26,954 nt of DNA, taken from positions 1 to 26,954 of IMG/VR virus record IMGVR_UViG_3300009168_000098; one strand, written 5' to 3'. The first letter of the stretch is position 1. Every line of letters starts with the position of its first letter. The position numbers and the translations under genes are program-made. Under the pieces are notes generated by a model. The model was not told where the DNA came from, did no database searches, and saw only the letters and a list, made by a program, of their open reading frames with translations. Of the stretch, positions 1,933 through 22,917 are shown piece by piece. The DNA comes from a virus.

Positions 1933-4900
1933 TATATTGTTGTGGTTGTAGTAGTGGTAGGTGCAATACTAGTACTAGTTGTAGTAGTAGTAGGTATTTC
2001 TTCCTCTATGTAAAATTCTTTTGTCACTGGATCATACTTAATATCTTCTCTTAAAGGAACATAATCAAGTTTAGTAATAATCATTCTGTCATATTTACTA
2101 TCATATACTCCATGTAATCCTAAATCCTTAAAGTTGTTATCAATATTGACTCCAGGTATTACTGTCTTCTCATGAGTAATAGGGTCTATATTTTCTTTAG
2201 GTGGAAAATATCTAAGTATATCAAAAGGTAAATGGTCTGTAAAGAATCTATTTAATCCTCCTCCAGGACCAGATAAATCTTTAGCTTGATTACCACTTAA
2301 TAAGAATACTTGTCCTCTCTTAGCATCAATGCTTATTTGTCCATATGGTATCTTCAATAGAAATTTATGTTGACTACCTACATAACCCAAATCTGTTTCT
2401 GCAAAGTCTAAAGGAGGTGTAGTATCAGAAAATAATCCTTGTCCTAAGTAAACCTGACCTCTAGTGTTTGTTTGAGTAGTATATAAAGCATTATACAATA
2501 AAGACTTATTCTCAAATCTAGCTAATAACTGTCTATTCTCAATACCATCTATACTAACCAGAGTACCATGGTTTTGAGGAAAATCAAAGTAGTTAGATGC
2601 TCTATATGTCAACCAGTTATTTACTCTATTATCAGCATTAGCTGTAGTCATGTCAGAGTATGTAGCTCTGAATGGATACTCAGTATAACATCTCTTACTT
2701 TTCCAATCAGGAGGTAGGTGTGTAAATAAGTTTTCTCTATTCTGTTTTGAATAGGTTACATTATAGTTATAAGTATTATCATTTAGAATAGAAACATTTT
2801 TCTCTTGTACCCATTCATCAGGAATACCTGTACTAACGTGTGGCCAGAACTCACCTTCTTTATCATTGAAAGCTTGTCTCAAGTCTACATTATAACTAGT
2901 TTCAACATAGAAGTTTGGAACTCCATATGCAAACAAATAGAAGTAACCATCATAGTAGGTTCTATTAGGATTATTCTCTGCAGGTACTGGAGGATTACTA
3001 TCTGGTCCAGGGAGCTGACTATTAGGACAATCAAAGTTATGAGCCTTATAAGATATGATGTTTGACAACACGCCTAGATTAGCATCGCTTGTTGTGAAGT
3101 CTTTGGTAATTGATCTGGCAGAATGCCAATACCTAGGATAAGCTATATTACCAATTTCATCATAGAATATATCACTCTCATCAGGGGCTCCTACTCTATT
3201 ATCAATAAAGAAAGGTACTTTAGTCTTAAATGCAAATCTGGTTATAAATGTATCTCCTCCAAATACAGTATGGTAAGGACCTTCATCTATAGCAAAGTTT
3301 CTTTGAAATCCTGTATCAATTGCTTCATAAGAGTATATTTGTCCCCATTGTCCTCTAAAAATATTCTTCATAGAAGCATAGTAGCTTACTACTCTTATAG
3401 GTTGTTTCTTTGCAGGTGTAGCACATAGTCCTGAATCTCCAATAGTAAACCTTGATACTTCTTCAATCCCTATGTTATTCTTCATTATAGAACTATTACT
3501 AGGGAAAGGAAGAGCTGGAACATCTAAGTCTGTTCTCAAATAAACAGATGTTTCTCTTTCATAGTTATTAATATCAACATCCTGTTCACCTACATTCTGT
3601 ATAACAGGAATAAGATACTTCTTCAAGTCAATTCTTCTTTGTTTTATTCCCTGATTGTTAGGAACAGGCTCTGTATAGTCATAGCTTGCTATAGAATTAA
3701 AGGACATAGCAAAGTTTCTCTTAGTAATACCATTGATAAATATAGTAAGATAAGCCTGGTATATGGTAAACATAGCAGCTCCATTGTTTGGATTAGTTAT
3801 GTTACCAACTTTCTGTGCACTATTTAAAGCATCTCTTTGAGCTTCCTCAGTTAATAATCTATATTTAGCATTCTCTTTTACTTCAACAAAGTGAGCATCT
3901 CCTCTACCATATATAACTGATTCCAGTTTAAGTACATCACCTAAGAATGGTTGCCCAAAGGATGTTTCAGGAGAATTGAATATTAGTCTATGACGTAATT
4001 CATCTTTTACAGCTGGTAATGGAACATCTTTAGAACAGGCATCAGTAGCATCTTTACTAACATCTAACTCAGGTCTACGAACAATTTCTCTATGACAATA
4101 ATTACCAGGTCCACTACAAAGAGCAGAACAATATGGTTTTGTTCCTTGTACTACATGTAAAAGTGTTTTTGCACCATTACTCCAGCCAGAACCAGGTATA
4201 TTTGCTGTTTTTATTCCATATATATGATCATCATATGTTACTGTCCAACCTGCACAGTCATCTAAAAAACCACCTCCTGTATATACCTCATAAACATCAT
4301 AAGCAGTATAACCTATAACAGCTGTAGTTACTCCATCAACTGAAGTAGCATTAACAACTACAGGTTTTTTCATTGAACATATATTTTCTTTAAGTCCAGC
4401 ACTATCATACTTTTTATAAGCTTCTTTGTTTGTATTACAATCTATATATCTGATTTGGGTATAAGCTGCTTCTCCATTCATAGCTGGTACATTCAACTTA
4501 TTTATAGTTACTGTAAATGATTGACATTGTTGACTGTAAGCATTGTTGGTGATATTTAGAAAAGGATCCTTATTTAAATCATTATAAGGATAGTTGGGAT
4601 AGTAAAAGGTTTGTTCTTCTCTTGTATAAGAGTTCACATTACGAAGGATTCCTTTGGCTATAACTGATTTGTTTGTTCCTCTGTTACCTCTTACTATTTT
4701 AAACCCCACTATATCATCTTTCTGTGCTCGTGTAAGATTAGAAGATTCAATTAAAAATTTTATTTGCTCTAAGTTAATCTTAAATCCTATAGGAAAAATA
4801 GCTGTGTTACCACTGGTCATTGTAGTTATACCACCAAATACTCTACCTTCAAATATAGGACTTACAAGTACATCTGGAAACTTATGGTGTCTAATCTTCT

Positions 4901-6392
4901 GTCCTGCTAATTCTCCCCACAACTCTTCATCACAAGGATATTCAACATCTGATTCCCAATAAGCAAACTCTCCATATTCATATGGACCTTTATAATCTTC
5001 TTCTGCAGAGTAACCAGGAGACTTACCTATATTAGTAGCTGTATTATATATCTTCCAATATGGAACTGGACCAGCATCTTCATCCTCTATATAATCAGGA
5101 TTAGATGGATATATAAGTGGTAATGTCTTTTCAACATCTGAAATCTTCCTCCCTGGAATATGAAACCCATCACCTTGTCTTCCACTTCTAAAAACAGGTA
5201 CAAATTCAAGTGGATATATCTCATCTCTCATATACCCTCTGAGATGAGTAGCATTAAACTCATTAGCATAGTTTTCATCAGGTGGTATTCTCCATGTCTC
5301 CCATTGTAAAGTTATTTTAGAAGCTATAGACTGATAACTTAATCTCTCTTGAGAAGTAAGTCCTTTCCAAACAAGGACACCAGCTACTGAAGTAATATCA
5401 TCAGCAACATCATAGATAGGGAACTTCTCAAAAATATCATTAATAGTTAATCTTATATTGTCTACTTTCTGTCCAGAATAAGTTATTTCTTTACTAGGTC
5501 CATCAATCTGATAAGTACCAACAAGTTCTACAGAGGTAATATCATTAACTGTTTTAATTACAGCTAGGTTGAAATATCTGAATTTACCAGACATTTCAAT
5601 ATTTCTAATGGAAACAACTACAGATTTACCTACAGGATAATTAAAATTAACTGTTACTAAATTAGGATCTGCTACAGGAGTAGGGTTTGTAACTGAAAAA
5701 TATGATGTATATGGATTACCTAAAGCATCACTATACTGTAAAGCAAACTGTAAAGTACCTGCAGTAAGACTTCCTCCACTAATAACATCAGTAACTTTAA
5801 CCTGAGGTATTGCTAAATCTGGTTGTATATTAAGTTGATTACAATCTAGATCTGTAGTATATTCAGGACTACATAAGTCACTATTAGGTTTAAGCTTATA
5901 AGGAATGTTATCTATATCTAGATATCTTCTTGCATTATTATCAGGCCAATATATCTCTGTACTACAGTTAGTAGTTCTATGTTCTATCTTAGGAATAGGT
6001 CTATTAACATCAAAATTGAGACAAACATCATTAATAAGAGTCTTATATTGACAATCATTATTATCCATATAACCTATCTCACTTCCCCCTGTAACAGGAT
6101 TAGCTAACATAAAGATATGTTTATATCTCTCCTGTATAAAGTGTCTCCCTATAACTACATAATTCTTTGGAAATACAAGACAAAATTCATTACCAGGTTC
6201 ATTCTGGTAGTTTATACTATTGGCATCATAATTTTCAAGAGCTGCATTTAAGGCAAAAGTAAGAGTACCAGGTGAAACTTGATTAGGAGTTTGATCCATA
6301 TTAAGTCCCTGCATAGCCTTATTAGCCTCCATATTAATATCAGATTTATCTCCTCCAAGGATTTTTCTGATTTTATCTAATTCATCTGCCAT
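1932..6392 (-). CDS. Crass-like tail muzzle protein, large fragment
   Basis: A 1486-residue protein, by far the largest here, directly downstream of the connector genes, where crAss-like phages keep their muzzle (tail-tip/exit gate) protein. The N-terminus is charged and short, then comes a long beta-rich sequence with paired Cys residues (for example YCSALCSGPGNYC near residue 760). The last recognisable family segment is KYDPVTKEFYIEEE, after which the protein ends in a pure Thr/Ser/Pro tail (DNA 1935-1995) and stops. In related phages I recall the sequence continuing into the SWTLSYSF region, which here begins the next gene. The product would sit at the distal tail and control DNA and cargo release. 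Confident as a muzzle-type protein; the fission is my inference. Confidence 0.85.
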   Translation of the reverse strand: MADELDKIRKILGGDKSDINMEANKAMQGLNMDQTPNQVSPGTLTFALNAALENYDANSINYQNEPGNEFCLVFPKNYVVIGRHFIQERYKHIFMLANPVTGGSEIGYMDNNDCQYKTLINDVCLNFDVNRPIPKIEHRTTNCSTEIYWPDNNARRYLDIDNIPYKLKPNSDLCSPEYTTDLDCNQLNIQPDLAIPQVKVTDVISGGSLTAGTLQFALQYSDALGNPYTSYFSVTNPTPVADPNLVTVNFNYPVGKSVVVSIRNIEMSGKFRYFNLAVIKTVNDITSVELVGTYQIDGPSKEITYSGQKVDNIRLTINDIFEKFPIYDVADDITSVAGVLVWKGLTSQERLSYQSIASKITLQWETWRIPPDENYANEFNATHLRGYMRDEIYPLEFVPVFRSGRQGDGFHIPGRKISDVEKTLPLIYPSNPDYIEDEDAGPVPYWKIYNTATNIGKSPGYSAEEDYKGPYEYGEFAYWESDVEYPCDEELWGELAGQKIRHHKFPDVLVSPIFEGRVFGGITTMTSGNTAIFPIGFKINLEQIKFLIESSNLTRAQKDDIVGFKIVRGNRGTNKSVIAKGILRNVNSYTREEQTFYYPNYPYNDLNKDPFLNITNNAYSQQCQSFTVTINKLNVPAMNGEAAYTQIRYIDCNTNKEAYKKYDSAGLKENICSMKKPVVVNATSVDGVTTAVIGYTAYDVYEVYTGGGFLDDCAGWTVTYDDHIYGIKTANIPGSGWSNGAKTLLHVVQGTKPYCSALCSGPGNYCHREIVRRPELDVSKDATDACSKDVPLPAVKDELRHRLIFNSPETSFGQPFLGDVLKLESVIYGRGDAHFVEVKENAKYRLLTEEAQRDALNSAQKVGNITNPNNGAAMFTIYQAYLTIFINGITKRNFAMSFNSIASYDYTEPVPNNQGIKQRRIDLKKYLIPVIQNVGEQDVDINNYERETSVYLRTDLDVPALPFPSNSSIMKNNIGIEEVSRFTIGDSGLCATPAKKQPIRVVSYYASMKNIFRGQWGQIYSYEAIDTGFQRNFAIDEGPYHTVFGGDTFITRFAFKTKVPFFIDNRVGAPDESDIFYDEIGNIAYPRYWHSARSITKDFTTSDANLGVLSNIISYKAHNFDCPNSQLPGPDSNPPVPAENNPNRTYYDGYFYLFAYGVPNFYVETSYNVDLRQAFNDKEGEFWPHVSTGIPDEWVQEKNVSILNDNTYNYNVTYSKQNRENLFTHLPPDWKSKRCYTEYPFRATYSDMTTANADNRVNNWLTYRASNYFDFPQNHGTLVSIDGIENRQLLARFENKSLLYNALYTTQTNTRGQVYLGQGLFSDTTPPLDFAETDLGYVGSQHKFLLKIPYGQISIDAKRGQVFLLSGNQAKDLSGPGGGLNRFFTDHLPFDILRYFPPKENIDPITHEKTVIPGVNIDNNFKDLGLHGVYDSKYDRMIITKLDYVPLREDIKYDPVTKEFYIEEEIPTTTTTSTSIAPTTTTTTTI

Positions 6393-10073: not shown

Positions 10074-10598
10074 TTAAGGAGGGCAACCAATATAAATTGC
10101 AAGCCATTCAGCACAACCACTATAAATAGCTGTATCTAAACCATTTTGAAAAACATTAGCAGTACCAGCTACCATTGTTGAACTTATTAATGTATATGGT
10201 TTTCCATCTGTACCTGTGAAAGTGGCTGTAGCACCAAATCCTAAAAGAGCTGGTAAATTCACCAGTCTTTCTGTATTATCACCACAACAAGTAGCATTAA
10301 CTCTTAATAGATTAGCAATAGGTGCAGCAGTGGTAGTAGTTGAAGTTGTTAATATAGTTGTTGATGTAGTTGTAGTTCCTCCAGGGACAGGGATAAGTAT
10401 CTGATTACTACATATACCAACAGATTGTACTTTAATAATATTAGTACCATTAGGAGCATTACTACTAGGAAATCCAGCTAATAAACTAGCTCTACTTATA
10501 TTAACTTCAAAAGCAGATATGTACCCATCAACATCTGAGTAGATATTAAATGGACCAGTATCTGTCCCTGCTGTTGTTAATGTTATTACTACATTCAT
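10074..10598 (-). CDS. Repeated ITLTTAG domain fused through Thr linker to a beta module
   Basis: 174 residues from the start chosen at 10598, where ATGA overlaps the upstream stop; the frame opens earlier at 10613, but MNVVITLTTAG matches the paralogues. Residues 1-75 are the repeated domain (TGPFNIYSDVDGYI, RASLLAGF, GICSNQ). A Thr/Ser tract follows (DNA about 10320-10382), then an ~80-residue C-terminal module with two CC/C-type Cys positions. It looks like a bipartite fibre component: an adaptor, a linker and a variable tip. Paralogous to its downstream neighbour, probably by tandem duplication with a different C-terminal module. Confidence 0.75.
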   Translation of the reverse strand: MNVVITLTTAGTDTGPFNIYSDVDGYISAFEVNISRASLLAGFPSSNAPNGTNIIKVQSVGICSNQILIPVPGGTTTTSTTILTTSTTTTAAPIANLLRVNATCCGDNTERLVNLPALLGFGATATFTGTDGKPYTLISSTMVAGTANVFQNGLDTAIYSGCAEWLAIYIGCPP

Positions 10599-11155
10599 GA
10601 TAATACTAAACAATTTTTAATATAAATACTAGTGTTCTCTAATATATCATCAACAAGTTCATTACTAAGAATATCTCTTGTTTCTAAATATAAGGCAGTA
10701 CCACCAGCTCCAGCTACCTGAGCAAAGAACTTAGTATAATTGAAAGGAGGACTTCCTGTCAAAATCATTGTACTAGCTTCTATAAAATTAAATGGTAGAC
10801 CACTAAAAGACAAAAAGTACTTTCCTACTCCAGCATACAAAGGAAGAACTGTATATCCAGAAGGAAAGTTAGTATCTATGACCACTATCTGTGGAGCATC
10901 AATTCCTTCTTGAATTATATTAGCCTGCCAATAATAACAATTAATAGGTGTAGCTGTAGTTATAGTACTAGTTGTGCTGGTAGTTGTTATACTTGTAATA
11001 TTACATATAGCCTGATCAATCTTCTGTAAAGCTAAACTAAGACTATCATCTTTATTAACACCAGTACATGGAAGATTGGGACCATAATAGGTCACATTAT
11101 CTGAGTTGACATTGTCACACCCACAGTCACAATCTTTTAAGTACTTCCAAGGCAT
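10595..11155 (-). CDS. Fibre-type protein with Cys-rich start and Thr linker
   Basis: 186 residues. The N-terminus has a CDCGCD cluster (residues 9-14) and YYGPNLPCTGV, followed by DDSLSLALQKIDQAI. That last motif recurs in the next upstream gene (GDPLSLVLDKMTTAI) and probably marks a shared docking region. A Thr/Ser tract (DNA about 10951-11001) joins it to an unrecognised C-terminal beta-rich module of ~115 residues. It overlaps the downstream gene by 4 nt (ATGA). Likely a modular tail-fibre or adhesin subunit; the tip domain is unknown to me. Confidence 0.72.
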   Translation of the reverse strand: MPWKYLKDCDCGCDNVNSDNVTYYGPNLPCTGVNKDDSLSLALQKIDQAICNITSITTTSTTSTITTATPINCYYWQANIIQEGIDAPQIVVIDTNFPSGYTVLPLYAGVGKYFLSFSGLPFNFIEASTMILTGSPPFNYTKFFAQVAGAGGTALYLETRDILSNELVDDILENTSIYIKNCLVLS

Positions 11156-11160
11156 TTTAA

Positions 11161-12297
11161 TCAGGGTATAAACATGATGTAGTTAATACCTACACCAGGT
11201 TGGTAATTATCATGAGCTTCTCCACCACCTGCAGGAATTATAGAAATAAATACATTCTGCGGAGGATCAGTTATAATTTCACCATTACCCCCTTTTAATC
11301 CTGTTACTTGAGGAGCAACACTTTTAACTTGAGTTACACCTCTCCATGTTCTTTCTTCATTATTAGCAAAAGCTGCTTTAAATTCCCATGAATAATCATT
11401 ATAACTATGAGTGTGACCAGGATCATTAATAGTTATAGTAGATTTATGACTATGTGAAGGCATTTGTAAAGGAGTAAGAACTATTCTGTTAACACCTTGT
11501 ATAGATGCACTTCCTCCAAGTTTAAATGCATTGTAAGTAGGATTACCAGGTATATTTGGATCAACTTGATCTGCATAATCTCCTGTACCCATATTAGTAG
11601 CACCTACAAGTACTAAACCTCTTAAGTCTGGTGTACCATGATCACCATTACATAAATAAACCTTAGCCCATAGTCCTAAACCAGCTCCTGTAATATCAAA
11701 AATACCTGTAGTATCACCAAAATAAGGATAGATTACATAAGGAATCATCTTACCACTTTGGTCAGTGGTAGCAGGAATACCTGATAAATAGGTTTGAATA
11801 TAACCATCAATCTCAGATTTAAGTACATAATTAGTACTCAAATCAAGTTTTGTAGCAGCTAAGTCATTAGCTACAATACAAAGTTTAAGTATAGAAGCTT
11901 GTAACACATCATGAGTATCAGAAGAATCAGTTACTCCAGTGAGACAATCTACATCATAATTACCATTTAGAGTATCTAACTCATTTCTCATAAAATTAAT
12001 CCTAGCCTCTATATCACATATAGCCTTTACTATAGCTGTTAATAAGACATTAAGATCTATAGGATCACAACAAGGTAAATAACTCCATATTAAATCACAT
12101 ATATCAGCAGGTTCTACTCGTGGAATTATACCATTACCCTTAAACATCTCTGTAATAGCAGTTGTCATCTTGTCTAAAACAAGAGATAAAGGGTCTCCTG
12201 TAGAGATATCAAGTGCTTCAATATCTATCCCTGTATACTTAACACACTTGTCAGGTGTTGGGTCTGGGCATCCATTATAACAATTTTCGCAAGCCAT
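11161..12297 (-). CDS. Tail-collar-domain fibre protein
   Basis: 378 residues. The N-terminus carries Cys pairs (CENC..C, residues 3-10) and the shared GDPLSLVLDKMTTAI docking motif (residues 34-48), then a helical stretch. The C-terminal half has the hallmarks of phage tail-collar/short-fibre tips: PDLRGLVLVGATNMGTG, LTPLQMPSHSH, DPGHTHSY, and the terminal NYQPGVGINYIMFIP. In this family the His pairs line the trimer and often bind metal. Expected to form a trimeric receptor-contacting fibre. It begins 12 nt after the previous gene and heads the fibre cassette. Confidence 0.85.
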   Translation of the reverse strand: MACENCYNGCPDPTPDKCVKYTGIDIEALDISTGDPLSLVLDKMTTAITEMFKGNGIIPRVEPADICDLIWSYLPCCDPIDLNVLLTAIVKAICDIEARINFMRNELDTLNGNYDVDCLTGVTDSSDTHDVLQASILKLCIVANDLAATKLDLSTNYVLKSEIDGYIQTYLSGIPATTDQSGKMIPYVIYPYFGDTTGIFDITGAGLGLWAKVYLCNGDHGTPDLRGLVLVGATNMGTGDYADQVDPNIPGNPTYNAFKLGGSASIQGVNRIVLTPLQMPSHSHKSTITINDPGHTHSYNDYSWEFKAAFANNEERTWRGVTQVKSVAPQVTGLKGGNGEIITDPPQNVFISIIPAGGGEAHDNYQPGVGINYIMFIP

Positions 12298-12309
12298 GAC
12301 TTAATATTT

Positions 12310-12648
12310 TTAAAATTGAACTGTTGTTGTTGTAGTAGTGGTATAAAATACATAAACTACTTCGTTAGTTATACAGCTAGTACAACCAGCTGTTAATAAC
12401 CTTACTCTATTAGCTATCTTATCTAGAGTAAACTGACAATCATAAATAGGATTAGAATACTTACGTATTAATATCTCTTTATAAGTAAGTAAATCCAATA
12501 TAAGATTAGTATCTATATACAAATTTAATCCATAGACAATATTATTGTAAGCTACACGACTAGCTTCGTATATCTTACAATTAATAGCATTTATAAGTGA
12601 CAGAATGTCATTACACTCTCCACCAATTATTGTTCTAGGAAGTATCAT
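12310..12648 (-). CDS. Small virion-cassette protein ending in a Thr tract
   Basis: 112 residues, mostly alpha-helical, with ECNDILSLINAINCKIYEAS and a SCITNE turn near the end. The last ten residues are almost all Thr (DNA 12320-12345), ending in VQF immediately before the stop. A Thr linker with nothing after it suggests loss of a C-terminal domain. The start overlaps the stop of the upstream microprotein (ATGA). I do not recognise a family; the context suggests a fibre or virion accessory protein. Confidence 0.7.
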   Translation of the reverse strand: MILPRTIIGGECNDILSLINAINCKIYEASRVAYNNIVYGLNLYIDTNLILDLLTYKEILIRKYSNPIYDCQFTLDKIANRVRLLTAGCTSCITNEVVYVFYTTTTTTTVQF

Positions 12649-13393: not shown

Positions 13394-14560
13394 TTATGGG
13401 AATAATGTACTAGTAGTTGAAGTTGTTGATGGTGCTACTACAGTAGTAGTAGAACTTGTGGTTAAACAAGTATTCAACTGAGTTACTGCAACACCTCCAT
13501 TAAGAGCTGTAAACAAAGCATCCATGATTCCAATAGCAGCTGCATCAGCATTAGATATTGCTACAATAACCATCTCATCAATTGGAATAAAGTCACCCCA
13601 ATTGTAAGCAGTCCTATCCAAATCATTAAATTTCAAATAATAAGTGGTATAAACTTCACCAGCAGTCACATAAGACTCGTAGTTTTGGTTATACCCCATC
13701 ATTCTATATAAATGTTTCATATAGCCTGCTTGGTAGCTGTAGTAGTTTTTCTCTAATTGTGCTATTTCTTCAGCAGTACCTGTTGCATAAGATGATCTTT
13801 GTATAACAGCAGCAGTAGCTACAATATTACAAGCATCTGAAACAATAAAGTCTACTGTAGTAGCTGGTCCTTCAGTAACGAAAACTCTGAACCACATTCT
13901 GTCGTATTCATGAGGAAAAGCAGCAATATCACATGGTACACCATATTTTGTCAAAGCTTTACCACTAATACGAAGAACGCTTCCAACTCTTTCAAAAGTG
14001 TAGAAGTTATTCAATGAGAGGTTGTCTGGGTTATTACCAGGAGCTTGTTGTTGCAACTTTGCAATCAATTTATCAATCAATGCAGGGATATCCACATTAA
14101 CACAAGGATCAGCTCCACAATCACAACAAGGTGCTTGTACAGATACTGAACGTGTAAATCCATTGAAAGCAATAGTATCAAGATAGCTTGAGTGAGCACG
14201 TAAAGTTAAAGTTACTATGTCACCGCATTGAACAGCCCAATTAGAAACATCAGTAATTTGAACTGCTGGAGTAGCACATCCAATTACTTTATACATTTCT
14301 GTAATATTAGTACCAATACATGCACCTGCAACACACCCTTTAATTTTATCAGAGCGTTTACTACCTTGTAAATAAGTATTTGCTCGACCTTGAGCAAAGT
14401 AAAAGTAAGGAGCTGCTGCAGCTGTTGCTGCTGTAGCTACTGTGTAGTCATTCTTAAAAAGCCCAAAGACTCCTGCACCTAAATCCTGTGTGCTTCCTGC
14501 AGCAGCAAGCGCAACTCCTTTAGGGACTACGAAGAGCGTGGTTAATGAGAAATCAGCCAT
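13394..14560 (-). CDS. Abundant-type crass-like virion structural protein
   Basis: 388 residues starting MADFSLTTLFVVPKG, with PYFYFAQGRANTYLQGSKRSDKIKG at 51-75 (family hallmark by memory), RAHSSYLDTIAFNGFTRSVSVQAP at 121-144, and a Cys cluster CCDCGADPC (145-153). It ends in Thr/Ser tracts (DNA about 13400-13462) that run to the stop. Ala-rich composition and the strong hairpin right after the gene suggest high, separately set expression, as for a head-fibre, decoration or major tail component. It follows the small connector gene by 26 nt. Family membership is fairly sure, exact location in the virion is not. Confidence 0.78.
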   Translation of the reverse strand: MADFSLTTLFVVPKGVALAAAGSTQDLGAGVFGLFKNDYTVATAATAAAAPYFYFAQGRANTYLQGSKRSDKIKGCVAGACIGTNITEMYKVIGCATPAVQITDVSNWAVQCGDIVTLTLRAHSSYLDTIAFNGFTRSVSVQAPCCDCGADPCVNVDIPALIDKLIAKLQQQAPGNNPDNLSLNNFYTFERVGSVLRISGKALTKYGVPCDIAAFPHEYDRMWFRVFVTEGPATTVDFIVSDACNIVATAAVIQRSSYATGTAEEIAQLEKNYYSYQAGYMKHLYRMMGYNQNYESYVTAGEVYTTYYLKFNDLDRTAYNWGDFIPIDEMVIVAISNADAAAIGIMDALFTALNGGVAVTQLNTCLTTSSTTTVVAPSTTSTTSTLFP

Positions 14561-14586
14561 TTTTTCTAAGTATTAAAAATTAATTA

Positions 14587-15318
14587 TTATTCATTTGTTT
14601 GTATTCTAATTTGAGAAGTTTGAATTGCAGATTGGTTCTCTATGTACATTGCTAAATTCTGTACAGCCAAGTCTAATAGTTCATCTTCTAAATATACTTC
14701 TAATTCACAATCCTGAGACAAGGAATTCTTTCCATCGAATTTCACATAACCTTCTTTGTCTATATATACAGGATATCTCATATATGAAACATAAATACTT
14801 TTAGGTGTAAAAGTACCATCTGTAAAGATACTAATTTCATCTGATGATAAAACGTTAAAAGTCTCCTGATACTCAAATGATGGTTTATAGTGATCATTGT
14901 TCAAAATAAATTGTAAATCACCATGCTTAGCTAAATCTCTATTAATCCAAATGATTCTATCTTTACATCTACCCTTGTCAGCTAATAAATAACTATCAAT
15001 ATAGAACATGTATTGTGGTAGTAGTTTACCTAAGTTAGCAGAGTATTGATTTAGAACTTTGTTTGTTTTCTTAAGAGGAAGTTTACCTTCATCATAATCT
15101 ACAACTAGAGATTGTAAATCTTCATATCTTTTTTTAAAAGCATCCAAACCAAGTCCACTTACAATACTAAAACCATCAGTTTTCTGTTTAATTAACTTAA
15201 TCTGTGCTTCATTCAAAGCTAAGATTTTGTCTTCTAAAAAGATTTGCTGATGAGAATTAGTTGAAAGCTTATTAAGTCTCTGATCTATCTTATACAATAA
15301 ACTATCTACTGGTATCAT
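14587..15318 (-). CDS. Crass-like connector/ring-type protein
   Basis: 243 residues starting MIPVDSLLYKIDQRLNKL, then LEDKILALNEAQIKLIKQKTDG, followed by a beta-rich C-terminal part (SIYVSYMRYPVYIDKEGYVKF) and a helical end (LEDELLDLAVQNLAMYIENQ). The helix-bundle plus beta-domain plan fits P22 gp4/T7 gp11-like head-completion proteins. It overlaps the upstream gene by 4 nt (ATGA), so translation is probably coupled. Likely one of the rings under the portal. Confidence 0.72.
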   Translation of the reverse strand: MIPVDSLLYKIDQRLNKLSTNSHQQIFLEDKILALNEAQIKLIKQKTDGFSIVSGLGLDAFKKRYEDLQSLVVDYDEGKLPLKKTNKVLNQYSANLGKLLPQYMFYIDSYLLADKGRCKDRIIWINRDLAKHGDLQFILNNDHYKPSFEYQETFNVLSSDEISIFTDGTFTPKSIYVSYMRYPVYIDKEGYVKFDGKNSLSQDCELEVYLEDELLDLAVQNLAMYIENQSAIQTSQIRIQTNE

Positions 15319-16286
15319 ACTGATGCTATTTTTTTAGCTTTTAATTTTCCTTCTAGGGTTAGTAAGTCATCTTGATGCTCATCATCAGCCAGATATTTCA
15401 CTAATTCATCTTCATCTTTAGCTACTTCAAACTCTCCTTCATAAATTCTACCACTATTTCTAGTACGATAGATAGAATGAGCTAAAGCTTGTTTTACCAA
15501 ATCTTTAATATGGAGCAAGTTTTCTTTCATGTCAGCAAATGAATTAAACACTGTCACAGGATCTAAACCAGAATATCTACCTTTTTTATCCATCTCTGTC
15601 TTTTTAAGTAAATTATCAATCTGATTATATACTACTTCCTCTTTAGTATCTTCAGTTACTGGAAGTCCTAGCAATCTTGCTACTTTACGTTTCTTATCAA
15701 TTGTCATACTATCAAACTTAATAATAGCTTTATTGATAAGTTGTTTTTTCTTGTAAAGAACAGCATTCTCAATTTCATCGTCTGCTATATAAAATTGTGT
15801 ATCTGCTGGATATTCTCCTCTTTCCCATGCCTGATATGAACTGGCAATGGTAGGATGTACTCTTAGCCATGCAAATGCTATAGCCATGAAAGGATTACTC
15901 TGATCAAACAAATTATCACCATCTAATAGTTTAACAGGTTGAACATGTTCATTATCATTTGATGATGATGATAAACCATAGTTCCAAAACTTAGAACGAG
16001 GACCTAAATCAATATCTCCTAGTTCACTTTGTAGTCTGTCTCGCAACTTGGTAACTCTTTCAACTTCAAGTTCTCTTTCAACTGTATCTTGAATTCTTTT
16101 TATATAAGCTGCATCAGGATCTAATCCAGTACGGTATTTACCATCCATTTCCTTGTAGGGAAACTTAAATACTCCTGTCCCTGGAACTCTGGTTAAGCCT
16201 TTTTGACTTAAACCACCATCCATCGTTTGCTGGTCTGAGCTGCTACGTTCTACCTTAATAACAGCAATTTTGCCTACTCTTTCCAT
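15315..16286 (-). CDS. Conserved protein downstream of the capsid gene, function unknown
   Basis: 323 residues from ATG 16286-16284. The frame is open up to 16331, but that extension reads through the tRNA-like element, so MERVGKIAV is the better start. The protein is highly charged and mainly helical, with coiled-coil-like stretches (RIQDTVERELEVERVTKLRDRLQSEL; about residues 75-100) and an Asp/Glu-rich C-terminus. It sits between the capsid gene with its HNH neighbour and a ring gene. A capsid-associated or cargo role is possible by position, but no motif shows it. Confidence 0.75.
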   Translation of the reverse strand: MERVGKIAVIKVERSSSDQQTMDGGLSQKGLTRVPGTGVFKFPYKEMDGKYRTGLDPDAAYIKRIQDTVERELEVERVTKLRDRLQSELGDIDLGPRSKFWNYGLSSSSNDNEHVQPVKLLDGDNLFDQSNPFMAIAFAWLRVHPTIASSYQAWERGEYPADTQFYIADDEIENAVLYKKKQLINKAIIKFDSMTIDKKRKVARLLGLPVTEDTKEEVVYNQIDNLLKKTEMDKKGRYSGLDPVTVFNSFADMKENLLHIKDLVKQALAHSIYRTRNSGRIYEGEFEVAKDEDELVKYLADDEHQDDLLTLEGKLKAKKIASV

Positions 16287-16307
16287 ATATTTAGTTATTT
16301 GGTTTTG

Positions 16308-16358
16308 TGGATAGTAGTGGAGTCGAACCACCTTTAGCTTGTAAGCCCCATGCTACCC
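16308..16358 (-). tRNA. tRNA-like 3' half (T-arm plus acceptor strand), degenerate or non-canonical
   Basis: On the minus strand GGTGG-TTCGACT-CCACT (16332-16316) is a textbook T-arm with TTC and the conserved A. ACTATCC (16315-16309) and a discriminator A follow. A possible 5' acceptor strand GGGTAGC (16358-16352) pairs at six of seven positions (one G-T). That leaves only 19 nt for everything else, including CTTACAA, which resembles a Val (UAC) anticodon loop without a good stem. No GGATAGT-type canonical 5' end is visible nearby. It may be a decayed tRNA, a minimal tRNA mimic, or a remnant of an insertion site. Confidence 0.4.
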
Positions 16359-16361
16359 ATG

Positions 16362-16383
16362 TTCTTTGTTAACGCACAAAGAA
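16362..16383 (-). other. Perfect 8-bp hairpin beside the tRNA-like element
   Basis: On the minus strand TTCTTTGT-GCGTTA-ACAAAGAA. An alternative AACGC/GCGTT pairing overlaps it. No T-run follows, so it is not a simple terminator. Confidence 0.6.
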
Positions 16384-16406
16384 TAAAGCGTTTATTTGAG
16401 AGCAAA

Positions 16407-16426
16407 TTCCCTCCTGTGGGAGAGAA
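16407..16426 (-). other. 8-bp hairpin in a purine/pyrimidine-biased stretch
   Basis: On the minus strand TTCTCTCC-CACA-GGAGGGAA, with one T-G wobble. The flanks are C/T-rich on this strand (G-runs GGGG on the plus strand at 16427-16440). It is part of the 173-nt gap between the HNH gene and the next start. Confidence 0.55.
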
Positions 16427-16450
16427 GGGGTTAGAGGGGATTCACTCTCT

Positions 16451-16470
16451 CTCAGTTCCTTAGAACTGAG
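16451..16470 (-). other. Perfect 8-bp hairpin with the HNH stop codon in its loop
   Basis: On the minus strand CTCAGTTC-TAAG-GAACTGAG; the loop holds the TAA stop of the HNH gene. Stem sequence upstream of the stop encodes the final QF residues. A weak terminator, an RNA-stability element or a homing-site feature are all possible. Confidence 0.6.
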
Positions 16471-16927
16471 GAATATTATTAGCTTCAATTACTTTCTTTA
16501 CATGTTCTATTTCCATATTTGGATTATGAATCTCTCTATGGCAATTAGCACATAATAACATACATTTTGAAGCTTCTTCTAAAATCTCATCATCTTTCTT
16601 GTACTTTAGATACTGTATCTTTATCTCAAACTTTTTTTCATAACCATCTTTATGATGAAAATCAAAAGCTGCTATATTTTTATCATAACCACACTTTTCA
16701 CATTTACCTCCAAACAACTGAATAAGTTCTAACTTTTTCTGAATACCTTTCATGGTATATTTATTTAAACCAAACTCATTCTTAAATTGTTGATATTGCT
16801 TAGAAGCAGTTGCGTACTTATGCAAATCATGACATTTTTGAGAACAAAACACTTTATCTTTTCTCAACTTTCTATTACTATTAATAGCACTAAAAAGCAT
16901 TCCACAATGAAGACAATTCTTTTCCAT
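16460..16927 (-). CDS. HNH homing-type endonuclease
   Basis: 155 residues. An N-terminal zinc finger (C5-x2-C8 ... C28-x3-C32) is followed by a classical HNH nuclease: C76-x2-C79, the His pair H91-H92 in FDFHH, and C126-x2-C129-H130-x3-H134 in LLCANCHREIH. Such free-standing enzymes cut a target gene and spread by repair. It begins 3 nt after the capsid stop (TAAGGTATG). Its C-terminus, NIPQF, repeats the capsid C-terminus, EIPQF, with all four third codon positions changed. Lys/Asn-rich composition differs from the capsid gene. It is a mobile gene placed inside the virion operon, probably dispensable for the phage. Confidence 0.92.
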   Translation of the reverse strand: MEKNCLHCGMLFSAINSNRKLRKDKVFCSQKCHDLHKYATASKQYQQFKNEFGLNKYTMKGIQKKLELIQLFGGKCEKCGYDKNIAAFDFHHKDGYEKKFEIKIQYLKYKKDDEILEEASKCMLLCANCHREIHNPNMEIEHVKKVIEANNIPQF

Positions 16928-16930
16928 ACC

Positions 16931-18484
16931 TTAAAATTGTGGTATTTCTTCAATAAGTACTGTTCTGGACAAGTCTTCAATGAACACATCACATCTGTCT
17001 TTCATCCAAATTTCATAACCAGGGAATTTATTAGCAGAAGACATACCTTGAGATTTTGCAAATCCTAAGTGGTGTCTAGTACCATCAATATAACCCCAAG
17101 TCATAGAAGGAGCACCTTTCATACGTACCTCACGAATATTATTAACCATAGAACCATCAGACATTGGAGAAACATCAAACACGAAGAATACTGGTGTTGA
17201 TTTTTTGTTTTGTCCAAACTCTAAGTTAGTTTGAGGTAAGTCAAGTTCTTTCAAGTGAATCAACTCAATTTTACCAGTTTCACGAGTGATCATAGAATCA
17301 AACGCAAAGTTGTAAGTAATATGTTGTCCTTCACCTTGCATAAATCTGTTTCCAGAGTCTGCTACAAGAACAAGACCTGAATTTAGAGCATCATTTTTAA
17401 GAGCTTGTTGGAATACATCAAATCCAGCTTCATTAGTGTACATTTTAACACGTCTGTCTTTCACATCCACACGTCTGTAGAATAAATCTCCAAACACACT
17501 TCTCAAAAGATTAGCACTAAACTCACCTCTGTTGTACTGAACTAAGTTACCATTATTACGCATTCTGTAGTATACACCAGCAGAAACACGTTTTACTTCT
17601 TGTCGGCTACCATTAGTTTTTACTGTACCTGGTTGAGCCCAGATCATACGTTTTACTTTTAGTTCCAACATTGACTTACGCATCCAGAATTCAATAAATG
17701 GTTCCCATTTAACATCATTACGAGTTAAAGGTAATTCACCACGTCTTTGAGGAGCATATACTAAGATGTCCAAAGCTTTACCACCAGAATCTTTCAACAT
17801 TCTATCATCTGCCCATTCTGTGATTTTGTGTTCATAACCATATGCAGAGCTTAAAGACTCAAACATAGTAATTTTTTCACCAAGTCTAGGTAAACCTAGC
17901 AAGTCTTGGTCAAATTCACCAATAGCAGCATCAACCAATTCAAGTTCGTTACCAACTTTCAAGAATTGAGAAGCAACAAAATCAACTTTAGGATTTGGAG
18001 AAACGAGAGTAAAAGAATAAAGATAACCATTGTTCCATGGTAGTGGATCTTTAATCGCGTATAAACGAGGACCATATTGACGAGATCCTACTGAAACGAT
18101 GGCATTCTTAGAGAACTCGTTAGTGTCTAGCACTAATTGGAACTCTTGTCCATCAATACCAGGTTTAGCTAAAGCTGCAGTGGTGTCAGGGATGTCAATA
18201 ATCTTAGGGAATTTGTATGGAACAGCTATGTCCCATTTCCAAGAATCACTGTTATTATCAATGTAAAACGGTGTACTCTTATTAATCATGTCCAGAAAAT
18301 CATTGCTGTACAATGTACTCTGGGTGTAGAGACTAATGATTTTCTTATCATAGTCTGCAGGTTCTGTGGAGTGGAAGGATTCCAAGTGATTGGAGTCTGT
18401 TAACTTACCTACTGCACGTTTGTCCATTGACGCCACCCTGGCGTAGGTAAACCCAACTAATCCTGGGATAGATTGTAGTGCCAT
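16931..18484 (-). CDS. Major capsid protein, crass-like (HK97-fold family)
   Basis: 517 residues, the usual length for crAss-like capsid proteins. Recognisable stretches include SLYTQSTLYSNDFLDMI near the start, LGLPRLGEKITMFESLSSAYGYEH around residues 195-220, and the C-terminal block SPMSDGSMVNNIREVRMKG then GYIDGTRHHLG. It follows the scaffold candidate by 32 nt, the standard order. The protein should form the icosahedral shell. Its last codons (ATA CCA CAA TTT TAA) are echoed by the following HNH gene. Assignment is from remembered family pattern plus position between portal/scaffold and connector genes. Confidence 0.9.
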   Translation of the reverse strand: MALQSIPGLVGFTYARVASMDKRAVGKLTDSNHLESFHSTEPADYDKKIISLYTQSTLYSNDFLDMINKSTPFYIDNNSDSWKWDIAVPYKFPKIIDIPDTTAALAKPGIDGQEFQLVLDTNEFSKNAIVSVGSRQYGPRLYAIKDPLPWNNGYLYSFTLVSPNPKVDFVASQFLKVGNELELVDAAIGEFDQDLLGLPRLGEKITMFESLSSAYGYEHKITEWADDRMLKDSGGKALDILVYAPQRRGELPLTRNDVKWEPFIEFWMRKSMLELKVKRMIWAQPGTVKTNGSRQEVKRVSAGVYYRMRNNGNLVQYNRGEFSANLLRSVFGDLFYRRVDVKDRRVKMYTNEAGFDVFQQALKNDALNSGLVLVADSGNRFMQGEGQHITYNFAFDSMITRETGKIELIHLKELDLPQTNLEFGQNKKSTPVFFVFDVSPMSDGSMVNNIREVRMKGAPSMTWGYIDGTRHHLGFAKSQGMSSANKFPGYEIWMKDRCDVFIEDLSRTVLIEEIPQF

Positions 18485-18516
18485 CTTATTCTAATTTTTG
18501 TTGTTATTACTAATTT

Positions 18517-19773
18517 TTATAAACCACCCCATTCTGGAGGGCTTAAGCTTCCTGTATTTTTAGATCCACCAGTAGTTCTGTCTTTTGTAACTTGTCTGGC
18601 AACCTCGCTAAATAAAGAATCAGTTTGTTTAGTAACACCAGCTTTTTGAATAGTGGAAAGAGTTGGATCTTTCTCTAGTACTTTTAAGAGTAGAGCTATC
18701 TTAACTTTGGTTGCATGATTCTCTGGTCTTTTCAAATCTAGAATCATCTTATCAAAATCAGTTAGCGTATCTCCTGCAGCTGTCTTATACTTGTCGACTA
18801 AAAGGAACTCTTGTAGCTCACCTGCCAACTTAGTATTGATGGGAATACCATCAAACTGTTTCTCTTTTAGTTTTTCTTGTATAACAGATTGAACATTATT
18901 AATAAACAGATTTTTAACCTGTGCTTTCTGAGCTAATTCATATTGAGATCTTTGTTCAATCTCTTGTAATTTAGCTGCTTGCTTTTTTACTAATACTTTA
19001 TGATTTCTTGTAGCTACTGTTTCCAGATCACCATAATTCTTCAATCGTTCAATCTCTGTATCTATATCTTCTTTATCGTAACCTTGTTCTGTTAGTGCTG
19101 CTCTGACTACTGATTCTTGATTACTTTCAATAGTAAGATCCATTTCAGCATAATCTACAGCTGTATTATAAGCTGTAAAATATTCACGAGGGTCAACACC
19201 CTTAACAAATATGGCATCAAAAGCTTGTTGATAATCTTCTCCAAACTGACCTATAAATTGGTTAACCATATCTATAGCTCCTCTTTGTTTCTCATCATTG
19301 AATCTTTCTAAGAAAGCTTCAGGAGTGGAAATATCAGGATCAGGATCATTTTCATCTTCAGTGAATACTCCTAATTTGAATAAATCCCTGGACAATGCTG
19401 TAAATTGGTTACCCTGTGGAGCATCCTCTTCATTATCTTTAGTAATATTTGCTGCTTTTCCTGTAGTGATTACCTCTTCTTCATCATCATCTTCATGATT
19501 ACCTAAGAAGTCATTAATAGTATTCTTGTTTTTTGGTTCTTCTCCTGGTTCAGGAGGTGTAAGATCTTTTCCTTTAAGAGGAAGAGTCTTAGGATCAGCT
19601 GGTGGTGCAGGTGGTTCAGCATCCTTAACAATAGGTGTGATGTCTGCAGGATCAGTTGAAGTCTCTGGAGACATAAGGTCATTCAGTAATTGGGCATTTC
19701 CTAAGCCCATTTCCATAGTATCTTTGATACTGAAATCACTGAATGCATCTTTATTAGTTTCTTCAGTTGCCAT
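18517..19773 (-). CDS. Scaffold-like protein upstream of capsid gene
   Basis: 418 residues, very acidic and Pro-rich in the first ~120 (an Asp/Glu run near residue 95). It is helical after that, with coiled-coil-like sequence around residues 250-300 (KKQAAKLQEIEQRSQYELAQKAQ) and a C-terminus ending PPEWGGL. Acidic, helical, low in aromatic residues, and directly upstream of the capsid gene, it fits a scaffolding protein that templates procapsid assembly. A head-maturation protease is less likely because no catalytic signature is visible. A promoter candidate lies 28 nt upstream. Confidence 0.72.
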   Translation of the reverse strand: MATEETNKDAFSDFSIKDTMEMGLGNAQLLNDLMSPETSTDPADITPIVKDAEPPAPPADPKTLPLKGKDLTPPEPGEEPKNKNTINDFLGNHEDDDEEEVITTGKAANITKDNEEDAPQGNQFTALSRDLFKLGVFTEDENDPDPDISTPEAFLERFNDEKQRGAIDMVNQFIGQFGEDYQQAFDAIFVKGVDPREYFTAYNTAVDYAEMDLTIESNQESVVRAALTEQGYDKEDIDTEIERLKNYGDLETVATRNHKVLVKKQAAKLQEIEQRSQYELAQKAQVKNLFINNVQSVIQEKLKEKQFDGIPINTKLAGELQEFLLVDKYKTAAGDTLTDFDKMILDLKRPENHATKVKIALLLKVLEKDPTLSTIQKAGVTKQTDSLFSEVARQVTKDRTTGGSKNTGSLSPPEWGGL

Positions 19774-19800
19774 ATGTAGTTGTATTATTGGTTTATGAAT

Positions 19801-19843
19801 GTAAAATTATAAAGAGATTTACTCTTTACAAAGGATAATGGTA
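19801..19843 (-). promoter_or_regulatory. Promoter candidate P3 with palindromic spacer
   Basis: On the minus strand TTTG, then 19 nt, then TAATTTTA, fits the Bacteroidota TTTG-N19-TAnnTTTG layout apart from the last base. The 19-nt spacer is exactly a hyphenated palindrome, TAAAGAG-TAAAT-CTCTTTA (19828-19810). It sits in the 132-nt gap after the endonuclease VII-type gene, upstream of scaffold and capsid. The rest of that gap shows nothing else clear. Confidence 0.5.
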
Positions 19844-19905
19844 CTCATTAGAATAATTTTTCCCATTTTATAGCATAAAGACAATCCATTTCTAACCAAA
19901 AAAGT

Positions 19906-20328
19906 TTATTTGCCAGGTTTGTTTTTGTTTCTAAGGTAATTAATAGCAGATTGAAGTCTATTTATATCTTCATTCATCAGACCTAAAGCAGTATTACAAT
20001 TATTACAAAGTAAACTTCTTACTTCTCCTGTTGAATGAGAATGATCTACTGCTAATCTTCTTTTAAACTCTGTTTGATGCCTATAACAGATTGCACAAAA
20101 GCCTTTCTGTTTTTCAAATAAAATATTATATTCTTCTAAAGAAATATTATATTTATTTTTTATATTTCTTTCCCTACTAACTATAGGATCATAATTTTCT
20201 TTATATTTATCTGCATTATAAATAGAGACACATACTTTACAATATGCTTTCCTTTGAAATTTACCATTTTTATCATAATTAAATTCATCTAATGGTTTTT
20301 CCACATGACATTTTGAACACCTCTTCAT
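19906..20328 (-). CDS. Endonuclease VII-type HNH nuclease (homing-like)
   Basis: 140 residues. An N-terminal zinc knuckle (C4-x2-C7 ... C30-x2-C33) precedes a recombination endonuclease VII domain: C78-x2-C81, the D95-H96-x-H98 motif in AVDHSHSTGEVRSLLC, C108-x2-C111, and the following NTALG..NED segment. Phage T4's enzyme of this family resolves Holliday junctions, but small versions such as this, wedged between virion genes, often behave as mobile genes. It begins 3 nt after the portal stop (TAAGCTATG). Its end (RNKNKPGK) resembles the portal end (RNRNNPKK). Its A-rich codon use differs from its neighbours. Confidence 0.9.
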   Translation of the reverse strand: MKRCSKCHVEKPLDEFNYDKNGKFQRKAYCKVCVSIYNADKYKENYDPIVSRERNIKNKYNISLEEYNILFEKQKGFCAICYRHQTEFKRRLAVDHSHSTGEVRSLLCNNCNTALGLMNEDINRLQSAINYLRNKNKPGK

Positions 20329-20331
20329 AGC

Positions 20332-22917
20332 TTATTTTTTAGGATTATTACGATTTCGAGCATTAATTTTAGCTATTTCAAGGTCATTTTTCTGATTATC
20401 TCTTTCTACATCAAGTTTTTCTCTTTCTATATCAAATTTTCTATTATCTATTTGTTGTTTAGAATTTATACCAGCCATTTTAGTTTCAAAATCTCTAGTA
20501 ACTCTCATTTCTTCATTAGCCATATTGGTAATTTCTAAAGCATCAGCTACTCCTGACTGGTCAACATCCGCAGTAGCCTCTGGATTTCTTGAAAGGGCTT
20601 GAATGACAGCAATTTCTTTTTTATTGATTCTATCCAACTCGTTTTCATGATTTTGATTAAGTATTTCTTGTTCTCTAGCTTGTCTGGCTTGTTCCATCTG
20701 AGCCTGAGCAATTTGTCCTTGTTGTTCAACTTTTTGTTGTTCAGTTTGCTGAGCTTGTTGTTGCATAGCATCTTGTTTATCACGTAAATCTTTGAAAACT
20801 TTTTTCATTGCTCTCATTGATTTATTTGAATAAAGTTCTATAATATCATATACACTACCTCCATTTTGGATAATAGCCTGACTTAACTGTCTAAGCTCAT
20901 TAAACATTTTAGTATCTTCAGGTCTATTAGTTGGGAATATTTTTAAATCTCTAAATTTAATATCATTTCCAGTAACAGTAATAAAAGCAGCTTCTCCTTC
21001 TGCAGTAATATAAGATATATTGGATTCAGGTTTACTAGATTCAATATATTGAGAAGCATCTATGATAGCTTGATATAAATGTCCTAAGACATATTCATGT
21101 GCTACAAACAAAGGTTCTGTTTGTGTATAACTTTGTTGTACCTCTGTGTTTGTCCCTGTAGCAGTAGCAGAAGCAGCTACATTTCCCATTCTTGATTTAG
21201 ACATACCAATTAACTCCCAACATTCATTCTTCATTTGTACAGCCAGATTATATCTGGTTTGAATCTCTTGAGTTCTAGTAAGGTCTAAAGCTGTAAATTG
21301 ATTGAAGCTACTTGGAGCTTTAAGATTTTCAGGACTATCATCCACAAATACAACACCTCTACGTCTTGCTTCCATTTCCCAAACATCAAGAGCATCTTGT
21401 GCATCCCCATCTTTAGGAATTGGTACATGACGAAGTGACATTAATTGTACCTTACCTATTTCCTTACCTAATATCTCAAATAGTTGATTCATACAAACAT
21501 TATAGATAACCTGGAAAGGTTTCATCATGTCTAGTAAGGATCTAGACTCTGTATTTTTAATTTCATGTATTGTTCCTATGATAGGACAATAATTCAATAA
21601 TTTGAATGGTTTTACAAAGTAAATATCAGGTCCTACTTTAATTCCCTGATACCATTCATTAATCCATCCCCATTCTAAACTCACCTGAGTAGGAAGTATT
21701 CCTGACTTGTAATTCTCATCAACTAACATTGACTGCAGTTCATCAAACTTATCTCTATAAACTACTTTACCTATTTTTCTTTTAGATATCCAGTATGCTC
21801 TAACTACAACATATTTATACCCAAATGCACTAACATTATTAGTTAGTCCTAAGAAGTCTCTAAGTCCATCATTATTCTCTTTAAGCTCAGACTCAATAAT
21901 CATCCTTGTCTGAAGGACTAAAGGGTCATAAGCATCATACATAATAGACTCTTGTCCTGGTATTGCATTGGGATTTCCCAAGTTCGATTCTCTAACATTA
22001 ATAAGCCCATAATCTTGTAAGCTACTTCTAAGGTGGTCAATTTCTTCTTTAGTTAAGTCTGGAATACTCTCTATAATCTCTGAAAGTTCCATTACTTGTA
22101 CAGTTCCTGCTGCATAAGCTCCTTGAGCTCTACCACTTGGATCTGATATATATTTTCTGTCTGGTGTGGTTAAATACCATGTATTTTTAGGATTTGCTAC
22201 TTCAATATTGTATCCCACCTTAGAATTATCTTCATAAATATGGTAAAATTCTCTATTAGAAATACATAAATCTCGAAAAGCATCTTCTGATTTCTCTTTA
22301 GTATTAAAGTCTGCTTGTTGACAGGTGAGAACGTGATTAGCCCACTTTTCCCCTATAGAAGTATAATCTGTCAACTGCTCTTGTACTTGCTCCATGGACA
22401 TCTGTTCTGCTTCCTCAGGTTCAAGTTCTATCCCTTCCATTGCAGCTTTCTCAAGTATCTTTTTCTTTGCTTGGGACATTATATAGTCCTGTAACATTTG
22501 AGTTTTATATTGTAACTCTTCAGCTTTAGATTCATCATCAAAAGCTTTTATTCTATATGTATCAGGTCTTTTTGTTAACTCTCCTACTAATTCATTTATT
22601 GGTGTAGTTACTATAGAATAGTTCTTTACATACTTAGGCAAAGCCATATCTTTTTCAAGCATATCTGTAAAGCTCTTTACTTCAGGTTCCTGATAGAAAT
22701 CTTCTACCCTAAGGATACCTTTAATAAGGTCATAGTTTCCCACAAAAGTTTCTCTGTTCTTAATATATTCTGAGTATGCTTTGTTGGCAAAGTAATCCAT
22801 TGTATTCTTTATCCAACTTTCGTCAGCTTTTTCCTTTTCAGTCTTAAACTGATCTGGGAATATATTAAGATAGGCATACCTAATGGTAGCATCCTTGGTA
22901 TATCTGATAATTGCCAT
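20332..22917 (-). CDS. Portal protein, crass-like
   Basis: 861 residues, directly downstream of the large terminase (3-nt gap), the canonical place for a portal. The N-terminal half includes VTTPINELVGELTKRPDTY (about residues 104-122), a usual portal-core pattern, and later AVQMKNECWELIGMSKSRMGN. The last ~170 residues are an extended Gln/Glu/Lys-rich coiled coil (from about residue 690), fitting a long portal barrel reaching into the capsid. The protein forms the dodecameric DNA gateway. The C-terminal coiled coil makes a false overlapping frame of Lys/Leu-rich composition. Confidence 0.9.
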   Translation of the reverse strand: MAIIRYTKDATIRYAYLNIFPDQFKTEKEKADESWIKNTMDYFANKAYSEYIKNRETFVGNYDLIKGILRVEDFYQEPEVKSFTDMLEKDMALPKYVKNYSIVTTPINELVGELTKRPDTYRIKAFDDESKAEELQYKTQMLQDYIMSQAKKKILEKAAMEGIELEPEEAEQMSMEQVQEQLTDYTSIGEKWANHVLTCQQADFNTKEKSEDAFRDLCISNREFYHIYEDNSKVGYNIEVANPKNTWYLTTPDRKYISDPSGRAQGAYAAGTVQVMELSEIIESIPDLTKEEIDHLRSSLQDYGLINVRESNLGNPNAIPGQESIMYDAYDPLVLQTRMIIESELKENNDGLRDFLGLTNNVSAFGYKYVVVRAYWISKRKIGKVVYRDKFDELQSMLVDENYKSGILPTQVSLEWGWINEWYQGIKVGPDIYFVKPFKLLNYCPIIGTIHEIKNTESRSLLDMMKPFQVIYNVCMNQLFEILGKEIGKVQLMSLRHVPIPKDGDAQDALDVWEMEARRRGVVFVDDSPENLKAPSSFNQFTALDLTRTQEIQTRYNLAVQMKNECWELIGMSKSRMGNVAASATATGTNTEVQQSYTQTEPLFVAHEYVLGHLYQAIIDASQYIESSKPESNISYITAEGEAAFITVTGNDIKFRDLKIFPTNRPEDTKMFNELRQLSQAIIQNGGSVYDIIELYSNKSMRAMKKVFKDLRDKQDAMQQQAQQTEQQKVEQQGQIAQAQMEQARQAREQEILNQNHENELDRINKKEIAVIQALSRNPEATADVDQSGVADALEITNMANEEMRVTRDFETKMAGINSKQQIDNRKFDIEREKLDVERDNQKNDLEIAKINARNRNNPKK

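Follow-up and report, generated by a model that had tools for sequence, protein, structure and literature searches.

Mobile endonuclease genes that bring along a new end for the gene they invade are known from fungal mitochondria, where open reading frames (ORFs) of this kind have been described for atp6 of Allomyces macrogynus and for atp6, atp9, cox2, and nad3 of Glomus (PMC3630166). In these cases, the endonuclease gene sits within the 3' portion of a conserved gene, a foreign and mostly synonymous end located upstream of the nuclease completes the target gene, and the displaced native end is found downstream, where it matches uninvaded relatives (PMC3630166). By analogy, these mobile ORFs are the closest precedent for the elements described here. 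In T4-like phages, the seg and mob genes encode free-standing homing endonucleases; they are intron-free, adjoin essential phage genes, have a patchy distribution, and overlap their neighbours by start and stop codons, and the known endonucleases of the T4 type cut hundreds to thousands of bases away from their own gene (PMC2988022). A further type, the DHHRN (EndoVII-motif) homing endonucleases, is represented by F-CphI, for which self-cutting is blocked by an intron in the target (PMC6083498).

Targeting of an essential gene at its 3' coding end, combined with a recoded rescue under the native promoter, is also the principle of the synthetic home-and-rescue drive HomeR, an engineered Cas9 system for flies which has no parts in common with the phage elements (PMC7968924). 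The ShiLan insertion in phage methylase genes possibly follows the same logic by analogy, as its initial 11 residues are similar to those of the methylase directly past the insertion site; it differs in being an in-frame insertion with a hidden HNH, and the similarity is not known to have been read as a replacement gene end (PMC11855218). An earlier phage report of a homing design that replaces the end of its target gene was not found in the open-access literature searched, so that priority is uncertain.

The locus compared here with these systems is located on a fragment of a crAss-like phage (IMG/VR record IMGVR_UViG_3300009168_000098), the 26,954 nucleotides of which are referred to as the window and the structural genes of which lie on the minus strand. 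The complete major capsid protein gene (16931..18484, minus strand; 517 aa, end IEEIPQF) was assigned by Pfam PF23898 Crass_capsid (E=3.5e-28) and phrog_11589, major head protein. Separated from its stop codon by a three-base gap, there follows the start of a gene for an HNH endonuclease of 155 aa, a putative homing endonuclease (16460..16927, minus strand; phrog_2255 HNH endonuclease, E=4.1e-22). Homologues of this protein give a weak Pfam HNH match, and the Cys, His, and Asn residues of the HNH core, including the zinc cysteines, are invariant in seven homologues; an AlphaFold model of the protein (mean pLDDT 52) was too poor for use. The nuclease gene is located outside any intron or intein, as the capsid ORF is complete and its stop codon precedes the nuclease. 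An Rfam search of positions 14500-20500 for intron families gave no credible match and one chance match, and a group I intron or intein was rejected as an explanation on both grounds.

The earlier note on this sequence had stated that the capsid and HNH genes end in codons for the same I-P-Q-F which differ at third positions, and that TAAGG is shared, which is correct: the capsid gene ends ATT GAA GAA ATA CCA CAA TTT TAA GG and the HNH gene ends GCT AAT AAT ATT CCT CAG TTC TAA GG. The block common to both ends comprises 17 nt, of which 13/17 are identical, and the four differences are all synonymous third-position changes. The sequence ATTGAAG, which the note had also pointed out upstream in both ends, is not part of the copy; in the HNH gene, it encodes a VIE/VLE motif of the family, which is conserved in homologues.

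The identity of the native end was settled by the element-free relative L301, which was found when the HNH-side end was used as a search pattern. L301 is 94-96% identical to the window, lacks the element, and is collinear with the window on both flanks. Its uninterrupted capsid end, ATTCCTCAGTTCTAAGG, matches the HNH-side copy at 17/17 positions versus 13/17 for the present capsid end of the window, ATACCACAATTTTAAGG, the four differences all being synonymous, and capsid end plus flank of L301 equal the HNH-side copy across at least 59 nt. The insertion point lies between GAAGAA and ATTCCTCAG. Because L301 presents the HNH-side copy as an uninterrupted capsid end, the inserted element can be delimited as the 471 nt from 16475 to 16945 (minus strand), consisting of a recoded capsid 3' end, one base, and those codons of the HNH gene that are its own. 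The last four capsid codons and the stop codon in the window thus come from the element, with the replacement end ATA CCA CAA TTT TAA GG at 16929..16945 (minus strand), and the native capsid 3' end at 16458..16474 (minus strand) now provides the C-terminus of the HNH protein in frame, together with its stop.

The HNH-less relatives L003, L004, and L013, which after L301 have the nearest empty loci, lead to the same assignment. What follows the HNH stop can be aligned with what follows their capsid stops, a profile of these empty loci matches the HNH end (E=5.5e-11) and gives no match to the present capsid end, and each of the individual alignments to the HNH end scores above all 2000 shuffles. 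TTC, the final codon on the HNH side, is also the last capsid codon in 102/105 distinct empty loci, versus TTT in the window capsid gene, and codons -4 to -2 are non-diagnostic across these 105 loci. By flank, by last codon, and decisively by L301, the HNH-side copy is the native capsid end. The comparison with HNH-less relatives that the earlier note had suggested therefore came out in favour of its proposal: in both sequence and flank, empty relatives resemble the HNH-side end and not the present capsid end, the exact sequence of which was found in no other viral contig searched, and an IPQF ending is no general property of the HNH homologues; among the capsid-adjacent ones it occurs in the window alone (L002 ends in QF). 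An ordinary HNH gene placed beside a capsid gene with a coincidental IPQF ending might still be envisaged, as four residues are few and nuclease genes near phage head genes are common (PMC10448857), but with native flank behind the HNH stop (E=5.5e-11), refutation by the empty relative L301, and independent recurrences, the probability of such a coincidence is negligible.

The native capsid 3' flank, which contains terminator-like hairpins (16391..16457, minus strand), is now located 3' of the HNH gene; it was recognized by identity with L301 over the first 59 nt from 16474 and by alignment to L003, L004, and L013. A hairpin at 16451-16470, CTCAGTTC-TAAG-GAACTGAG, spans the native capsid stop and is also present in L301, and is thus a native feature of the capsid end of this lineage. 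The intergenic region at 16310-16400 (minus strand) contains a T-arm-like sequence, GGTGGTTCGACTCCACT, and a 3' acceptor-like end and resembles a tRNA remnant; intact tRNA genes occur at or near the matching position in L003, L005, L087, and L118, and a search by ARAGORN returned zero tRNA genes in the window and zero in L301.

Upstream of the repeat, window and L301 differ at 8/117 third positions (6.8%) and inside the block at 4/4, the probability that all four would differ by chance at the local rate being about 2e-5. The recoding is confined to the 17-nt block, and the adjoining capsid sequence of the window matches L301. These values indicate that the recoding was imported rather than acquired by drift. 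The replacement end of the window is nearest to the one that L082, an HNH-bearing relative, has at this place, ATACCACAGTTTTAA. The HNH tree places the window together with L082 and L115 (support 92/92, under the star threshold). A target-site or tandem duplication with subsequent synonymous drift of the capsid copy would leave two short direct copies flanking the insert, as observed, and synonymous changes are also what drift would produce in a constrained protein; this origin is nevertheless very unlikely, given that the HNH-side copy equals L301 and that the capsid copy differs at every third position against so low a local rate, and given a recoded portal end common to two relatives inside a 98%-identical element (see below).

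The presence of the HNH gene is patchy, with lateral spread. Searches yielded 117 distinct capsid loci, which were termed occupied when a related HNH gene is present at exactly the same place; this applies to 12/117 loci, scattered over the capsid tree. The last codon plus stop, TTCTAA, is found at the capsid end in none of the 12 occupied loci (0/12) and in 98/105 empty ones, and its loss among the 12 involves seven different codon/stop combinations, although these counts overstate independence because the capsid loci are mutually related. Occupied loci are nested among empty ones, so that the HNH label needs six changes on the capsid tree, four of them on starred branches; the four independent supported contrasts (starred branches only) showed the same direction or no difference and are too few for significance in a sign test. 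In places, the HNH tree conflicts with the capsid tree: the window and L002 belong to one tight capsid clade, yet their HNH genes group apart, and L120 has the most distant capsid, its HNH gene nonetheless being close to those of L083/L087.

One may ask whether the nuclease simply homes and a diverged capsid end of the donor is co-copied during repair, the codon changes not having been selected for blocking cutting. In phage homing, flanks are normally co-converted (PMC2988022), the changes differ between loci, and in the occupied loci L118 and L119 the TTC codon is kept and only the stop is altered. We regard this as rather unlikely in view of the seven combinations that all remove TTCTAA in the occupied loci against its retention in most empty ones, and of the restriction of the change in the window to 17 nt next to capsid sequence matching L301. 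A last codon TTT without an HNH gene occurs in L029, L059, and L254, which possibly are former carriers or uncuttable alleles. As to co-transfer of capsid codons, the last eight capsid codons of L002, L115, and L088 are mutually closer than to their nearest empty relatives (rank 1/373 windows tested); with five lineages instead of three the rank is 5, so that this test is supportive, short of conclusive. At the right junction, a profile of empty capsid ends matches at or just past the HNH stop in six occupied loci, and TTCTAA or more is kept in L002, L082, L088, L116, and the window. The HNH start adjoins or overlaps the capsid stop, as in coupled translation.

In our preferred reading, which we consider very probable, the HNH gene represents a homing element of the free-standing type with the conserved capsid 3' end as homing site and a recoded rescue end. 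The earlier note had proposed an insertion inside the capsid end, a synonymous replacement carried by the insert, and conversion of the original codons into the HNH end, and this proposal is supported by L301 and by recurrence at two other genes. Insertion and boundaries, recoding, identity of the native copy, and patchy distribution follow directly from the sequences, as does, for the portal element, the joint movement of nuclease and recoded end; DNA cutting, the exact cut site, the repair route, and immunity through recoding are steps that we infer from them. In a mixed infection, the nuclease would cut element-free capsid genes near ...GAAGAnATnCCnCAnTTCTAA, and repair from an element-bearing donor would copy in the HNH gene, preceded by a capsid end in which codons or the stop are changed. 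The last codons of the recipient would be shifted downstream, where in the window they are read in frame and supply the HNH gene with its C-terminus and stop; the capsid protein is unaltered and the native 3' flank is retained. On the left side, the protein but not the DNA sequence is regained, and the right side retains only the downstream part of the site; lacking the original DNA sequence, the restored capsid end would thus probably not be recut. In the window, 17 native bases and further sequence downstream of them remain on the right side, so that the recognition site would have to extend upstream into GAAGAA or beyond. Reuse of the native end in frame gives the nuclease a stop and leaves the native 3' junction undisturbed.

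The phage element works like a fungal mobile ORF, sharing with it the position within the 3' portion of a conserved gene, a synonymous end supplied upstream of the nuclease, and a displaced native end downstream (17/17 to L301), but it is no member of that group. The nucleases are of the HNH and EndoVII types and reside in phage virion and replication genes, the replacement comprises about 4-9 codons only, and the native end can be reused as nuclease C-terminus. The intron-free, patchily distributed nuclease gene next to an essential phage gene, with adjoining or overlapping start and stop codons, recalls seg and mob, but here the site of insertion falls within the probable target, where its coding sequence ends.

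A second element of the same kind is located directly 3' of the portal protein gene of the window (20332..22917, minus strand; phrog_6547 portal, E=6.8e-93) and consists of an EndoVII-type endonuclease gene of 140 aa (19906..20328, minus strand; Pfam PF02945, E=2.6e-25). The present portal end is ARNRNNPKK, followed by the stop, versus LRNKNKPGK for the nuclease. The probable native portal 3' end, captured as EndoVII C-terminus (RNKNKPGK plus stop; 19906..19932, minus strand), was identified by alignment of the EndoVII-gene end plus flank to the empty portal ends of L002, L003, L005, and L013, each scoring above all 2000 shuffles; an empty relative near-identical to the window at this element was not found by DNA pattern search. 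The nuclease contains the motif CX2C, D-H-x-H, R, CX2C-N, and its D-H-H-R-N pattern (D95, H96, H98, R104, N112) has the spacing of F-CphI (PMC6083498); protection would come from the recoded target end here, in contrast to the intron of the F-CphI target.

Homologous EndoVII-type genes are present at the portal site of L006 and L125. The L006 nuclease ends KGRNKKSK, then TAATGTTTGATA, which is the portal end of the empty relative L025 except for one synonymous base. Between L006 and L125, identity over the 435 nt of the portal element, which include the recoded portal end, amounts to 98.4%, versus 79.7% and 75.7% for the flanks, and right of the element each has kept its own native portal end, which differs between them (NKKSK and IKKSK, respectively). 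This pair provides direct evidence, at the level of sequence, that recoded portal end and nuclease move jointly. In L125 (3576-3995), the EndoVII gene has a premature TAA (CAA in L006) and is still flanked by the recoded portal end, as expected of a decaying homing gene.

A scan for shared C-termini over 1260 adjacent gene pairs recovered the portal pair of the window and two T4-like contigs, L166 and L169, in which the end of clamp-loader gene 44, ECEFQ, equals that of the adjoining EndoVII-type gene. Matches in L154 and L157 (low-complexity) and other non-nuclease matches were set aside. In Synechococcus phage S-8S53 (OQ504982.1), gene 44 ends GAG TGT AAC TTC AAA TGA and the nuclease gene GAA TGT GAA TTT AAA TGA, and the nuclease end runs into the next gene as in the element-free relative DSL-LC02. 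For a viral contig taken from a sequence collection, such as the window, fusion of two capsid-end alleles by metagenome assembly would be a conceivable artefact, but it is made highly improbable by twelve distinct occupied loci on different contigs and by S-8S53, a named isolate with the same design. A captured gene end was found in none of ten more nuclease regions of named phages, including T7-like 13.5 genes, Roseobacter phage CRP-6, and cyanophage SS120-1, and the design is therefore not universal for EndoVII-type genes.

We lean towards the view that gene-end-replacing homing elements form a general class in phages, with unrelated nucleases, several essential genes as targets, a recoded immune end, and the native end reused as C-terminus, and that they would act as natural home-and-rescue drives between coinfecting phages. 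They would be the natural equivalent of the engineered design, found in viruses and in genes whose disruption is not tolerated, and would explain how an essential gene can accommodate a cutting gene in its coding end without self-cutting or harm to the host. In element-free coinfecting relatives, the capsid, portal, or clamp-loader gene would be cut, and the elements may act in phage competition. Pairs of occupied and empty sites yield exact cut-site predictions, and among named cyanophages, S-8S53 carries the element and DSL-LC02 is without it.

In the T4-like contigs L170-L179, EndoVII-type genes are located just 5' of gene 44 and overlap its start with their last codons, without a copied end. 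In the tail gene region of the window (1932-6392, 10074-12648, and 13394-14560), Thr/Ser runs of the type TTTTTSTT occur within several structural proteins or form their ends.
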